Assembly (NCBI RefSeq): GCF_037081775.1
Contig: NZ_JBAMHQ010000001.1
Span: 1,736,001-1,800,000, forward strand
Length of the DNA stretch: 64,000 bases
Source of the DNA: Haladaptatus sp. ZSTT2
Lineage (GTDB): Archaea; Halobacteriota; Halobacteria; Halobacteriales; Halococcaceae
Direction of reading: 5' to 3'
The position numbers and the translations under genes are program-made. The notes beneath the pieces were generated by a model. It did no database searches, was not told where the DNA came from, and saw nothing but the letters and a program-made list of their open reading frames with translations. Shown piece by piece: positions 46,904-56,727 of the stretch (position 1 is its first letter; each line of letters begins with the position of its first letter).

Positions 46904-47449
46904 ATGGGTATCTTTGCGGTGGTTGCGATTGCCTTCTGGGCGATGTTGCCTGCCTACATCCCCAACAACGCCGCTGTCCTCTTTGGCGGCGGTCCGCCCA
47001 TCGACGGCGGCCGGACGTGGAACGGAAAGCGCCTCCTCGGTGACGGGAAAACGTGGCGCGGAACCGCCGCCGGAACGGCCATTGGCATCCTCGTCGCCCT
47101 CCTCCTCAACGCTATTCGTCCCAGCCTCAACCACCAACTCGACTTCATGCTCCCGGCGTTCCCGCTCACCGTCGGTTTTACGCTCGCGTTCGGCGCGATG
47201 CTCGGTGACATTCTCGCCTCGTTCATCAAACGCCGCTCCGGGCGCGAACGCGGCGCGGCGTTCCCCTTCCTCGACCAACTCGACTTCGTCGTCGTCGCCC
47301 TCCTGTTGACCTTCCTTGTCACTCCCGGCTGGTTCCGCCAGACGTTCACCCTCCCCATCATCGTGACCGTCCTCATCCTCACCCCACTGCTCCACATCAC
47401 CACGAACGTGATTGCGTATCTGCTGGGGCTGAAAAACGAGCCCTATTAG
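46904..47449 (+). CDS. carS: CDP-archaeol synthase CarS
   Basis: This 181-residue integral membrane enzyme transfers CTP onto 2,3-bis-O-geranylgeranylglycerol phosphate, giving CDP-archaeol for polar lipid synthesis. It has [84 protein letters not shown], and four to five helices, typical of the DUF46/CarS family. The TATA-like GATTAAGG at 46869-46876 is at leaderless distance from the ATG. Confidence 0.95.
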
Positions 47450-47746
47450 TGCGCATCTTTTTACAACTCGGGTTCGCCAGAGGCGAACCGCTCGTTGCAA
47501 AACCATGCGTGAAAAAGGCCGAATGCGTCGCTGGCGCACTCGGATGCTTCGCTGGACGGCCTCCGCACCGCACAGCAACCGAACTACAACCCCACAGCAC
47601 AGCCACCGCACAGCCACCGCCGCACAATCGTCCAACTCCTCTCATAACCTCAACACGACGTGCCCATGCTAATGCACGCAAATGGTTACTTCCGGCCTGA
47701 CAGCCCATCGATGTATTCATAACTGTGCAACCGTGAGGTACAGGGC
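47450..47746. other. Intergenic region with CACAGC-rich tandem repeat
   Basis: This 297-bp gap has no gene I can support. It contains the 11-bp CACAGCCACCG as an exact tandem pair at 47598-47619, preceded by related CACAGCA units from about 47571. The gap ends with the TATA-like TGTATTCATAA at 47711-47721, 26-36 nt before the next start. The small open frame 47449-47700 has no domain and no regular N-terminus. Confidence 0.5.
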
Positions 47747-51937: not shown

Positions 51938-53200
51938 GTGACGCTCATTGGCCTCGACGACACCGATTCGAGAGAACGCGGGATGTGTACGACCTACGCC
52001 GCCGCCCGCATCGCCGCCCGCATCCGCGAGGCCGACGGGCACGTCGCTCGTCTCCTCCTCATCCGGCTGAACCCAGCCGTGAAACACAAAACACGCGGCA
52101 ACGCCGCGCTCTGTATTCACACCGACTTTGCCTCCGAGCCGGCCTTCGAGATTGCGCGAGAGGAAATTGAAGCGTCTGCAGAAACCGCAGACCCGCGCAC
52201 GAATCCGGGGCTCGTGGTGTCTCCGACGGACACTGTCTCCGACGCCGTCACCCAGTTCGCTCGTGACGCCGTCACGGAGTTTCACGACATCGCAGACGCC
52301 CGCGAACTCATCTCGCAAGAGGGGTTTCTCGCTACTGACTGGAAGCGCGGGCGCGGCCTCATCGGCGCGCTTGCCGCTGTCGGCGCGTGGGACGCCTTTT
52401 CTGAGTGGACCTACGAATACATCTCCTATCGCCCCCGCGAGCGGTGGGGAACCGAGCGCGACATCGACTACGACTCGGTGTTTGCGGCCGCGGAGACGGG
52501 CTATCCCGCAGTTTGGGACACGGTTGACGAGGTCGAAGGACAAGCCGTCTGTGTACCCCACACGCCCGGTCCCATCCTCCACGGGATTCGCGGCGACGAC
52601 CCGGGGGCCGTCCGAGAGGTTGCTCACGCCATCGAGAGCGAACCCGTCGAGCAAACCGCGCTGTTCGTGACGAACCAGGGCACCGACGCACACCTCAAGC
52701 AGGGTACGATTTCTACTGCAAAAAACGGCCACGCGTACCGGCTTTCGGGCCGAGTAGCCACCCCACCGGAAACGCGGGAAGGAGGGCACGTTTTCTTCGA
52801 CATTGAATCCGACGGAGCGCGCCTCCAGTGTGCGGCGTTCGAGCCAACGAAGCGGTTCCGTGACCGCGTGCGCGCCCTCCGCGTCGGCGACGACCTCGTG
52901 GTGTGTGGCGAACTCAGCCGAGGCACGCTGAAACTCGAAAAGTTCGCCGTTCGCGGGTTGAACACAACCGCGTTCGAAACCCCCGAATGCCCGACGTGTG
53001 GTTGCCGAATGAAGTCTGCAGGCGCAGATCAAGGCTATCGCTGTCGGGACTGTTCCACGAGCGCGCCGGGGAAGGTAGAAGTGTCGGTCGCGCGCAGCAT
53101 CGAGCGCGGGTGGTACGAGGTGCCGCCGTGTGCACGGAGACATATCGCGAAACCGTTAGTTCGTGGTAGGTTCGAGTGGGAAACCCACGCAGAGCGCTGA
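51938..53200 (+). CDS. tiaS: tRNA(Ile2) 2-agmatinylcytidine synthetase TiaS
   Basis: This 420-residue enzyme charges C34 of tRNA-Ile2 with agmatine so it reads AUA; it is essential in archaea. Family marks: start TLIGLDDTDSRERGMCTTYAA, TNPGLVV, KRGRGLIGALAAVGAW, the OB-like GHVFFDIESDGARLQCAAFEPTKRFRD and a C-terminal zinc ribbon CPTCGCRMKS...RCRDCST. The start is GTG 51938; I see no in-frame ATG upstream. TATATTCAATC near 51889-51899 would give a leader of about 16-20 nt. Confidence 0.93.
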   Translation: MTLIGLDDTDSRERGMCTTYAAARIAARIREADGHVARLLLIRLNPAVKHKTRGNAALCIHTDFASEPAFEIAREEIEASAETADPRTNPGLVVSPTDTVSDAVTQFARDAVTEFHDIADARELISQEGFLATDWKRGRGLIGALAAVGAWDAFSEWTYEYISYRPRERWGTERDIDYDSVFAAAETGYPAVWDTVDEVEGQAVCVPHTPGPILHGIRGDDPGAVREVAHAIESEPVEQTALFVTNQGTDAHLKQGTISTAKNGHAYRLSGRVATPPETREGGHVFFDIESDGARLQCAAFEPTKRFRDRVRALRVGDDLVVCGELSRGTLKLEKFAVRGLNTTAFETPECPTCGCRMKSAGADQGYRCRDCSTSAPGKVEVSVARSIERGWYEVPPCARRHIAKPLVRGRFEWETHAER

Positions 53201-53235
53201 CGGCCTGCGTTTTTTGGTGTCTCTTTCACTGTATT

Positions 53236-53285
53236 GCAGACCGTTTCAGACCGTTCTCGTCTTTAGAACGGAATTAACGGTCTGC
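53236..53285. promoter_or_regulatory. Nested CCGTT/AACGG inverted repeats
   Basis: GCAGACCGTT (53236-53245) and AACGGTCTGC (53276-53285) are 10-bp perfect arms. Inside them CAGACCGTT repeats at 53247-53255, and CCGTTCT (53251-53257) pairs with AGAACGG (53265-53271) round a 7-nt centre. CCGTT units start at 53241 and 53251, and AACGG units at 53267 and 53276, near one helical turn apart. The block lies 36 bp after the tiaS stop and about 80 bp before the next ATG. Confidence 0.55.
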
Positions 53286-53366
53286 TTAGTCGGTGTATAG
53301 GTATGGTGGGAGGGCCACTTGGCTTTGGTACGCGTCGATGACCCGACGTGAACGGAGACCCCAACC

Positions 53367-53600
53367 ATGAGCGGAAACGAATACGATCTCAGCAAGTCCG
53401 GATGGTCGAACGGCGCGAAAGCCCAGTCGTTTACCTCGCGCAACCGCTGGCCAGAGTTCGACCTCGATTACACGATCGAGTCGAACGGCCCACGCGAAGA
53501 GTGCACCGTGTACCCACGCGAGGCGAGCGAAGACGCGCTGATGACGCAATGGATTACGGCGTCCGAGGGGTCTTTCGTTGACCTAACGGACGCTCGCTGA
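53367..53600 (+). CDS. Small haloarchaeal protein (DUF7511-like)
   Basis: This 77-residue protein (MSGNEYDLSKSGWSNGAKAQSFTSRNRWPEFDLDYTIESNGPREECTVYPREASEDALMTQWITASEGSFVDLTDAR) resembles a haloarchaeal small-protein family; the central YTIESNGPREECTVYPREASEDALMTQWITA is its recognisable core. One cysteine. Function is unknown. A TATA-like GTGTATAGG at 53293-53301 would give a leader of about 40 nt. The nested repeats at 53236-53285 probably control it. Confidence 0.75.
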   Translation: MSGNEYDLSKSGWSNGAKAQSFTSRNRWPEFDLDYTIESNGPREECTVYPREASEDALMTQWITASEGSFVDLTDAR

Positions 53601-53950
53601 GAGTTCCCCGGCTTCGGCCCTTCCCCCACGCCCGGCTTCCACGTCGGGCACACGCCGGTATCTCCTACCGGTTGCATCGCCCCGGCCGCGCCCCACGCGG
53701 CTGTGAACTACCCAACGCGCACCCTACTGCGCTGCACCAAACCGCGTCGGTTTCGCGACGGCGTCGCCAAACGCCGTCGCTGTCTGCCATGCCACTGCAC
53801 TGCTGGCGCGCTCGCCACCGCTCACCACGGTGGCGAGACGCCCGATCGTCCCCTTGGTCGGGCCTTGGCGGTTGCCACCGCCGCCACGGCCGTTCCATCC
53901 GTGGTTCGCGCCAGCAGGTACACACCTACACTTCCTGAGCAATAGCGTAC
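53601..53950. other. Gene-free, GC-rich region with tandem hairpins
   Basis: No credible coding frame is present, and the short open frames found here have arginine/proline-rich compositions typical of antisense noise. Instead a run of at least ten non-overlapping perfect inverted repeats fills 53631-53928. Arms in order are 53631/53646 (5 bp), 53656/53667 (6), 53686/53697 (6), 53718/53729 (5), 53740/53749 (6), 53756/53773 (9), 53812/53829 (10), 53841/53859 (6), 53868/53878 (6), 53885/53900 (6) and 53917/53925 (4). Loops are mostly 3-12 nt. The sequences of the hairpins differ. Confidence 0.65.
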
Positions 53951-54642
53951 TCACCAGTTTTCCGGGAGCCTGCGATAGGTTCGCCAGAGCAAACTGAAAC
54001 CAGCGACGACCAATAGCAGGGAAACGAGGGCTTCAACCGAGTCACCAGAACTCGATTCTGCGCGACCCGTCCCCGCGAGCATGACGTAGCCGTCGTCCGT
54101 GCGGATGATATGATTCGCCGCCGGGAGCGACTCATCGGTTTTCAGGCTTCCGACGAGCAATGCATACCGCCCTCGAAGCGACAACTCATTGGGTTCGATA
54201 GCTGTCTCCTCGATAACTGTCCGTGCAGAGACGGGACGAAGGGTGACGGTTGCGGTACTCCCGGATAGCTCCACGCGTCGCTCGTAGTACGGCGAGTCAC
54301 CACCGGCGTGATGGACGAATCGGTCGCGTGTATCCATGCCTCCCCACTCAAGATCGAATTCACGCGCTCCAGTTTCCAGTCGTTCGCGCTCGTAGGCACA
54401 CAGCGGCGTCGTCTGTGGTGCTTAGCACTCGACTTCGGGGAATTCGTTATCAGATCTCGACTCGCCGACGGTGATTCGACCGTCGTCCGTACTCACTGGC
54501 TTGACTTCGTAGTCGTGCTCGTTAAGTCGAGATTGAACACGCCGATGTAGAGGGGATTCGCCACGAGTAGCGCGCCGAGAAACAGCCGGAGGGCAAGCGA
54601 CTGCCGGGGTGAGGGCGACCAGCCGCGTGCGAGGACGCTCAT
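53951..54642 (-). pseudogene. Decayed haloarchaeal membrane-anchored protein gene
   Basis: The N-terminal frame starts at ATG 54642 (MSVLARGWSPSPRQSLALRLFLGALLVANPLYIGVFNLD) and runs only 49 codons, to TGA 54493-54495. A second frame continues the same protein from about 54525 as LNEHDYEVKPVSTDDGRITVGE...EVEC, stops at TAA 54422-54424, and resumes in the same frame to 53951. It includes LCAYERERLETGAREFDLEWGGMDTRDRFVHHAGGDS and a C-terminal membrane helix (ALVSLLLVVAGFSLLW). The intact family is an N- and C-terminally anchored exported protein. There is thus one frameshift near 54520-54530 and one in-frame stop. A promoter-like GCTATTTTC (minus, 54661-54670) precedes it. Confidence 0.75.
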
Positions 54643-54688
54643 ACCGCTGCTTCTCAGGAGGCGAAAATAGCTATTCGATTGTCATCTC

Positions 54689-55771
54689 TCACTGCATCTT
54701 CAGTGCACTCCCCGTGAGCGGGACGACCACGTCGTCGCCGTCGTCGATAACGCCACGCGCACGGTAGGTAGCGAGTGCGGCCGTCGCGCTCGCGCTCGTC
54801 GGTTCGACGTAGAAACCCGCGCGGTGGAGGCGGTCGAGTTCGGCGTTCGTTTCTTCGGCTTCGACGGCAATCGCGTCGCCGCCGGTGGCTTCGATTGCGG
54901 CGAGCAACTGGTCTTTGCGGGCGGGGTCGCGTATCTGAATCCCGTCTGCAACGTCGTTTTTGGCGTCTGTCGGGCCGTGCAGTTCGTCTGCAATCGGGGC
55001 GAATCCGGCGGCCTGTGCGCCCAATAAACGTGGCATTTCAGTCGTCCAGCCCGCTTCAAGCAGGGCTTTAAAGCCGCGATACGCGCCCAAAAACAGCGTC
55101 CCGTGGCCGAGTGGCAACACGACCGCATCGGGCACGTCCCAGTCGCGCTGGGCGGCGAGTTCGAAGGCCACCGTTTGCGTTCCGGCGAAGAAGGCGGGAT
55201 TCCACGCGTGGCTCGCGTACCAGCCCTCGCCGCGTTCTGCCGCCTCGATGCAGGCGTCGGTGACGGCTTGTCGGTCGCCTTCGATGGGGACGACGGTCGC
55301 CCCGGCGCGTTCGATGGCACGGCGCTTTGCGGGTTTCACCGCTGCAGGGACGTAGATTTCCGCGTCGATGCCCGTGCGGGCGGCGTAGGTGGCGATTGCC
55401 GCGCCCGCGTTCCCCGAGGAGTCTTCGATGACGGTTTCGACGCCCAGTTGACTGGCCCACGAGAGCGTCGTCGTCGCGCCTCGGTCTTTGAAACTCCCCG
55501 TCGGAAAGACGTACTCAAGTTTGAACTGGGCGTCCCACTCTGCGGCATCCACGAGCGGCGTCCACCCCTCCCCGAGCGTGACCCGCGGCTCCATCGGCAG
55601 AAACTCCGAGAACGTCCAGAGGCCGGGGCGCGTATCGAGCGCAACCGGGTCGGGTGCGGGGCCGTCGGGCAACGGTCGGTCGGCAAAATCGAGGGCGTGG
55701 CCGCACGCACAGCGCCACGGCTCGTCAGGACTCGATTCGTAGGTTCGGGCACAGGACGTGCAGGCGTACAT
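54689..55771 (-). CDS. Threonine synthase-like PLP enzyme with zinc ribbon
   Basis: This 360-residue enzyme has a zinc ribbon at the N-terminus (C4, C7, C21, C23: YACTSCARTYESSPDEPWRCACGHAL). Next come the PLP lysine K95 in PTGSFKDRGATT, EDSSGNAGAAIATYAARTG and AVVLPLGHGTLFLGAYRGFKALLEAG. It belongs to the threonine synthase group (ThrC) of fold-type II enzymes, or a close paralogue acting on another O-phospho amino acid. It overlaps the upstream hydrolase gene by 1 bp as TGATG. Confidence 0.85.
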   Translation of the reverse strand: MYACTSCARTYESSPDEPWRCACGHALDFADRPLPDGPAPDPVALDTRPGLWTFSEFLPMEPRVTLGEGWTPLVDAAEWDAQFKLEYVFPTGSFKDRGATTTLSWASQLGVETVIEDSSGNAGAAIATYAARTGIDAEIYVPAAVKPAKRRAIERAGATVVPIEGDRQAVTDACIEAAERGEGWYASHAWNPAFFAGTQTVAFELAAQRDWDVPDAVVLPLGHGTLFLGAYRGFKALLEAGWTTEMPRLLGAQAAGFAPIADELHGPTDAKNDVADGIQIRDPARKDQLLAAIEATGGDAIAVEAEETNAELDRLHRAGFYVEPTSASATAALATYRARGVIDDGDDVVVPLTGSALKMQ

Positions 55772-56727
55772 CAGATTTCGTCGATATCGACGCCGACCGA
55801 GCAGACGTACTCGCCGGTTGCAACCTGCGGAAGGCGGCGGGTTCGCCAGAAGATGCCGTCGGTGTCGGCGTCAATGGTGTCCTTTACGGTGCCGAACACG
55901 TCGGTGACGCGAAACAGCGTGTCGCCCGCTCGCACTCGGTCGCCGAGGTCTTTCTCGAAGCTCACGAGGCCGCCGGAGGGCGCGCCAAACTGGCGAAAGC
56001 CACGCGCACGGGTCTGGGGCTCGATGTCCACGTCGCCGTCTAAGAAGCCGTAGTAGCGAAGCACGTTGTAGATGCCGCGGACGCCGAGGCCGATGCTTTG
56101 TTCGTCCCAGCCAACCGCGCCGCCGAGTTCGGGGTCGATGGTCGGGATGCCCTTATCGGGCGCAGCGCGGGCGAGTTGGCCGTTCGGCCCTTTCTGGTCC
56201 AAAATGTGGCCACAGCCGAACACGCGGGCGAGTTCGAGGCACTCGTCGTGCATGTGGTGGCGACGGCCACAGCGGACGCGGGTTTCGTTTATCATCCGGC
56301 TGGTCGAGCCCTGGTGGAGGTCGAGCACGTAGTCTGCGCGACTCGCGATTTCGAAGGTGGCGGCGGCAATTCGCTCTGATGAGGTGCCGTTTTTGTCACC
56401 GGGGTACGCCCGGTTCATCTTCGTGTCGTCGATTGGGTTTCTGTGCTGTGCGACCTGAAAACCGTGATAGTTGACGATGCCGACGAGGAGAATCGTGCCA
56501 GCGAGTTCGGTCGGGTCGAGTTGTGGAACGAGCGTCTTCAATACGCCAACGCCGTTCAGTTCGTCGCCGTCACTCGCCGCCTGAATATAGAGCGTGCTCC
56601 CCTCGGAAGCCCCGTTTATCACGGCGACAGGGAGCCGAAGCGGGCTGCCGTCGCGGAGTTCGCCAACGGCTAACCGACCGACGTCCATCTCACCGGGAGC
56701 GGCCTCTGCCGTGCCGAGGGTCGTCAT
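55771..56727 (-). CDS. AstE/AspA-type zinc hydrolase
   Basis: This 318-residue protein belongs to the succinylglutamate desuccinylase/aspartoacylase group of M14-type peptidases. The metal-site glutamate and second His are seen in DGDELNGVGVLKTL and YVLDLHQGSTSRM, but the usual first His of HGDE is Asp here (SDGDEL). Other marks are NYHGFQVAQHRNPIDDTKMNRAYPG, QSIGLGVRGIYNVLRYYG and a C-terminal barrel domain. It lies one base from the threonine synthase-like gene and shares an operon with it. Confidence 0.84.
   Translation of the reverse strand: MTTLGTAEAAPGEMDVGRLAVGELRDGSPLRLPVAVINGASEGSTLYIQAASDGDELNGVGVLKTLVPQLDPTELAGTILLVGIVNYHGFQVAQHRNPIDDTKMNRAYPGDKNGTSSERIAAATFEIASRADYVLDLHQGSTSRMINETRVRCGRRHHMHDECLELARVFGCGHILDQKGPNGQLARAAPDKGIPTIDPELGGAVGWDEQSIGLGVRGIYNVLRYYGFLDGDVDIEPQTRARGFRQFGAPSGGLVSFEKDLGDRVRAGDTLFRVTDVFGTVKDTIDADTDGIFWRTRRLPQVATGEYVCSVGVDIDEI

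Follow-up and report, generated by a model that had tools for sequence, protein, structure and literature searches.

A conserved array of hairpins with C-rich loops downstream of a DUF7511 gene, a candidate structured RNA in one haloarchaeal genus

The locus and its parts

The window, the whole 64-kb stretch of DNA analysed here, carries on its plus strand TiaS, then a gene for a 77-aa DUF7511 protein and the hairpin array, with a PALP enzyme gene in convergent orientation 3' of the array. The first-pass annotation had described a small DUF7511-like gene here, and the match to Pfam PF24351 (E 1.3e-17) bears this out. The genome of the window (G000) is called sp0, and two further members of its genus are called sp1 (G001) and sp2 (G002). 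Amino acid identity of the DUF7511 protein is 79-92% among the three species; among control genomes the family was found in Haloferax only, and within the order in most genomes searched, which marks the genome of the window as haloarchaeal. A conserved T-run lies 3' of TiaS, and the sequence upstream of the DUF7511 unit is conserved in its own right. The parts of the locus, 5' to 3', are as follows.

53262..53302, plus strand: probable promoter region of the DUF7511-array unit, with GAACGGAATTAACGGT and GTGTATAGG, largely conserved in the three species; read as a promoter from its sequence
53331..53366, plus strand: leader hairpin CGTCG-ATGACC-CGACG, with one compensatory T-A to C-G change in sp2, and the motif GTGAACGGAGACCCCAACC (19 nt, identical in three species) 5' of the DUF7511 start
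53367..53600, plus strand: DUF7511 small protein, 77 aa
53630..53649, plus strand: H1, 7 bp, loop TTCCAC; 4 pairs altered on both sides
53654..53672, plus strand: H2, 7 bp, loop TCTCC; 2 pairs altered on both sides
53677..53706, plus strand: H3, core stem 53684-53690/53696-53702, loop CCCCA, possible extension TCGC/GTGA; nearly invariant, with a one-sided C-G to U-G change in sp2; followed by invariant GTGAAC
53717..53732, plus strand: H4, 5 bp, loop CCCTAC; stem invariant in three species, C-run of the loop kept
53739..53753, plus strand: H5, 6 bp; 1 pair altered on both sides; missing in sp1, longer in sp2 with loop TCCCCCT
53755..53780, plus strand: H6, 10 bp; 2 pairs altered on both sides
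53784..53798, plus strand: unpaired linker with CTGCCATnCC, common to three species
53800..53810, plus strand: 5' arm of the outer helix, CTGCTGGCGCG, invariant in three species; partner 53907-53917
53811..53837, plus strand: H7, 10 bp, loop CTCACCA; sp0 and sp1 only
53840..53863, plus strand: H8, 9 bp including G-U pairs, loop TCCCCT; 4 pairs altered on both sides; TCCCC of the loop retained in 3/3 species
53867..53882, plus strand: H9, 6 bp, loop TGCC; sp0 and sp1 only
53884..53904, plus strand: H10, 6 bp, loop CCGTTCCAT; a different hairpin at the same place in sp2
53907..53926, plus strand: 3' arm of the outer helix, CGCGCCAGCAG, with the invariant tail GTACACACC; 20 nt identical in three species

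Some 30 nt lie between the DUF7511 stop and the start of the array. The distance from the end of the array to the 3' end of the convergent PALP gene is at most about 40 nt in sp1 and sp2 and about 760 bp in sp0. What had been taken for a downstream pseudogene is an extra segment (53951-54688) that lies between array and PALP in sp0 only, and its 128-aa ORF (53951-54337) belongs to no known family, having no Pfam or NCBIfam match. Neither promoter nor terminator was found in the surroundings of the array with the consensus used, which is bacterial only.

Several side observations were made in the window. Inverted repeats are nested at 53236-53286 upstream of DUF7511 (GCAGACCGTT ... AACGGTCTGC enclosing CCGTTCTCGTCTTTAGAACGG) and may serve as an operator; the plus-strand fold z is -4.4 for the scan segment that begins at 53101. 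The GTGAAC that follows H3 also occurs in the region of the DUF7511 leader motif. The gap 47450-47680, after a gene ending at 47449, has CACAGC/CCACCG repeats and a strong hairpin (GGGTTCGCCAGAGGCGAACC), with a minus-strand fold z of -3.7 at 47400-47600. A C-skewed stretch at 47050-47450 was rejected, being a coding gene.

Stems, folding and conservation of the array

Within 53631-53928, 8 non-overlapping perfect stems of at least 6 bp (loops 3-12) were counted, in agreement with the first-pass annotation, which had described about ten hairpins in 300 bp and about eight stems of that length. Dinucleotide-preserving shuffles of the interval (n = 1000) gave a mean of 1.2 such stems and a maximum of 5, with 0/1000 reaching 8; the earlier estimate of one or two 6-bp stems by chance was correct, and shuffles as rich in stems as the array, named beforehand as the result that would speak against it, never occurred. 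For stems of at least 5 bp the count was 9, compared with a shuffle mean of 3.3 (maximum 8). The number of stems of at least 6 bp was not above 8 in any other 298-bp stretch of the 64-kb window. The RNA fold of 53601-53945 had a z of -6.68 on the plus strand, with 0/100 shuffles as good, and of -3.31 on the minus strand, and the top-scoring windows of a sliding fold scan over the 64 kb all lie at the array.

When G-U pairs and one long-range helix were allowed, the array resolved into 10 hairpins and an outer helix of 11 bp (53800-53810/53907-53917), which encloses the last four hairpins in a multiloop and leaves six hairpins on its 5' side. The 5' boundary of the array lies at 53630, and the outer helix had been overlooked in the first-pass annotation. 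The two stems named there as the longest are both 10 bp (53755-53764/53771-53780 and 53811-53820/53828-53837); the length had been given correctly for the second (53812/53829), but as 9 bp for the first (53756/53773).

The array is present at the same locus in sp1 and sp2, between DUF7511 and PALP, and its blastn-aligned part is 81% (sp1) and 72% (sp2) identical to sp0. Fold z values in the three species are -5.8, -5.1 and -7.7 on the plus strand and -3.1, -3.4 and -3.1 on the minus strand. In a hand-made structural alignment of the three species, each row of which was checked against the genome sequence, 191/197 cells are paired (97%); both bases have changed in 13 pairs and a single base in 4, most of the double changes falling on the sp2 branch. 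When the 3' partners were slid by 1-3 columns as a control, 45-84 cells were paired, with 0-1 double changes. Relatives had been proposed as a check of the pairing, and it is kept at the same locus in both congeners. For example, the arms of H1 read GCCCGGC/GTCGGGC and TCCAACC/GGTTGGA across species, and those of H6 read GCGACGGCGT/ACGCCGTCGC, CGAAGGCG/CGCCTTCG and GGAGGCG/CGCCTCC in the three species, the partners matching.

No ORF shared by the three species was seen across the array. The indels between species are 1, 2 and 4 nt, which excludes a shared reading frame, so the array is not protein-coding and the earlier remark that the region has no coding logic stands. The aligned identity of the array is 85/68/64%, compared with 68/54/53% at the four-fold degenerate sites of TiaS. 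Since pairing is kept while the letters change, identity lies above that of four-fold sites and the indels break the frame, the sequence comparison leads us to conclude that selection acts on the structure of the array. Two marks of a structured noncoding RNA are present, namely pairing kept by compensatory change (in the hand-made alignment of three species) and the lack of protein coding.

Among the unpaired bases of the array, C makes up 50-58% and G 4-9%, depending on the species; in RNase P RNA from the same genomes, 45-48% of the unpaired bases are A. Hairpin loops are 54-64% C and 7-10% G, reading TTCCAC, TCTCC, CCCCA, CCCTAC, CTCACCA, TCCCCT and the like, and the apical loops are thus rich in C. 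Three motifs are conserved among the unpaired bases: GTGAAC 3' of H3, CTGCCATnCC in the linker, and GTACACACC 3' of the outer helix.

Distribution outside the genus

There is one copy of the array per genome. A search for the 19-nt core of the 3' arm and tail, allowing up to 2 mismatches in 293 genomes of the order, found exact matches in the three congeners only. With a covariance model of H3-H4, the congeners reached 82-93 bits and no match elsewhere more than 29 (392 order genomes); 11 of the weaker matches were inspected, and all of them coincide with open reading frames, with no array in sight. A weak blastn match in another genome (G017) was rejected as a homologue, as it lies within an AAA-ATPase-like gene, and 24 bacterial exact matches to the motif, from a scan of named genomes, were taken as chance. 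Phage, plasmid and viral-contig collections gave no match to the array. The window had no Rfam match at gathering thresholds, and 53200-54000 had none even at E up to 1. In each of the three genomes, archaeal RNase P RNA (RF00373) is encoded at another locus, and ARAGORN found neither tRNA nor tmRNA in 52000-56000.

The neighbouring genes were also followed in other genomes. Nothing comparable was found 3' of other DUF7511 genes at 24 of 41 loci, those whose frame could be placed, and the regions downstream of TiaS in 27 other relatives hold different genes or nothing comparable. Other genera often have TiaS and PALP side by side in convergent orientation, the space between them being short or taken up by other genes. 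In a sister genus (g2; L139-L145, L148, L149), TiaS is often followed on its own strand by an ORF of about 257-286 codons in place of DUF7511 and the array.

Proposed role and comparison with known RNAs

Considering the above results, we propose that the array forms a structured noncoding RNA whose C-rich loops regulate in trans, and which most probably makes up the 3' part of the plus-strand DUF7511 transcript and is perhaps cut loose from it; we put the probability of this whole reading at about one half. A highly structured RNA was among the options raised by the first-pass annotation, and the conserved position and the compensatory changes in both congeners agree with it. That the array is transcribed we infer, and the RNA is probably regulatory. 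As the array begins so close to the DUF7511 stop, on the plus strand it would be the DUF7511 3' UTR or an RNA derived from it, and the fold energies, which favour this strand, likewise make it probable that the array forms the 3' part of that mRNA or is released from it. The plus-strand transcript of DUF7511 (53367-53600) would extend into the array, which might then be cleaved off. By analogy with bacterial sRNAs that have C-rich loops (sX13), the stems may form a rigid scaffold displaying many C-rich loops, and these may pair with G-rich segments in other RNAs or be recognised by an RNA-binding protein, the outcome being multivalent regulation in trans. No target of the loops was found, and a G-rich stretch that the DUF7511 leader carries, GGTGGGAGGG, is not conserved in sp2.

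The main competing explanation, distinctly less probable than the reading proposed but to be taken seriously, is a cis-acting structured 3' UTR that protects or terminates the DUF7511 mRNA, or insulates the convergent gene pair, and does not act in trans. It agrees with how near the array lies to the DUF7511 stop and, in the two congeners, to the PALP 3' end, and hairpins can act for both strands. However, a single hairpin would suffice for such a role, and ten of them with conserved unpaired motifs and C-rich loops exceed it; a search with a bacterial consensus gave no terminator-like T-run 3' of the array, and other haloarchaea have TiaS-PALP neighbours or DUF7511 without an array.

The plus strand is quite probably the functional RNA, and our preference for it is moderate. 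It is favoured because its fold energies are better and because G-U pairs are conserved in H1 and H2. With G-U pairs forbidden, z was -5.8/-5.9/-5.0 on the plus strand and -3.7/-5.8/-4.0 on the minus strand, and a strand-neutral count of G-U against A-C favoured neither strand. An unlikely alternative is that the functional RNA is the minus strand, within the PALP 3' UTR, with G-rich loops that bind a protein in the fashion of CsrB. Minus-strand folds are also below those of shuffles (z -3.1 to -3.4 in the three species), and the loops would read GGA or GGGG, but the plus strand folds better in all three species, the conserved G-U pairs of H1 and H2 would become A-C mismatches, and in sp0 the array is separated from PALP by the extra segment. 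In addition, to our knowledge CsrA is not known from haloarchaea.

It is improbable to a still greater degree that the array is a DNA element, folding as single-strand hairpins in replication, recombination or transposition, or a remnant of a mobile element. Perfect inverted repeats fold as DNA too, and template switching can produce double changes; against this, conserved G-U pairs pair poorly in DNA. The first-pass annotation had offered a recombination or replication site and a mobile-element remnant as options, and neither is supported, given the single copy per genome, the fixed synteny in three species and the lack of a match in the phage, plasmid and viral-contig collections. Multiple copies or presence in mobile DNA, as expected of mobile or replication hairpins, were found in none of these searches. 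Least credible of all is chance or a mutational by-product without function, which would fit an array confined to one genus but not the shuffle result, the 13 compensated pairs or the conservation above four-fold sites.

Apart from rRNA, tRNA, RNase P, SRP and guide RNAs, few structured RNAs are known from archaea, and for most of those few no mechanism is known. The array is compact, well delimited and backed by compensatory changes, which makes its role open to a deletion test. A large multi-hairpin RNA can occur throughout one genus while apparently missing from the rest of the family, and this restricted occurrence bears on the origin of such RNAs.

We regard the array as a candidate for a new RNA family of a known general type, not listed in Rfam and unusual in its number of C-rich loops. 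A bolder and tentative proposal, which we think has the odds against it, is a new archaeal family of about ten C-rich-loop hairpins serving as a multivalent sponge for G-rich mRNAs or an RNA-binding protein, a convergent counterpart of CsrB and sX13 born in one genus as a 3' extension of a small-protein gene. The CsrB/RsmY RNAs have many hairpins in a row with a repeated loop motif, and their loops carry GGA for CsrA. The array resembles them in its serial hairpins presenting a repeated loop motif, but its plus-strand loops carry CC or CCCC and none carries GGA, which would be found only if the minus strand is the RNA, and it has no Rfam match at E up to 1.

Intergenic sRNAs have been mapped between protein genes of Haloferax volcanii (PMC6490895, PMC3956466), and in being noncoding and lying between protein genes of haloarchaea they are like the array; the array differs in having no homologue in the other order genomes searched. 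The closest likeness in the loops is to sX13 of Xanthomonas, for which repression of G-rich mRNAs by C-rich hairpin loops is established, and RNAIII of Staphylococcus aureus and HPnc5490 of Helicobacter are discussed alongside it as C-rich-loop RNAs (PMC3771888). Like the array, these three have stable stems and apical C-rich loops, and loop motifs of the sX13 type recur in the array as UCCCCCU in H5 of sp2 and UCCCC in H8 (PMC3771888). In contrast to sX13, which has three such loops, the array has about ten, is archaeal and is attached to a small-protein gene.
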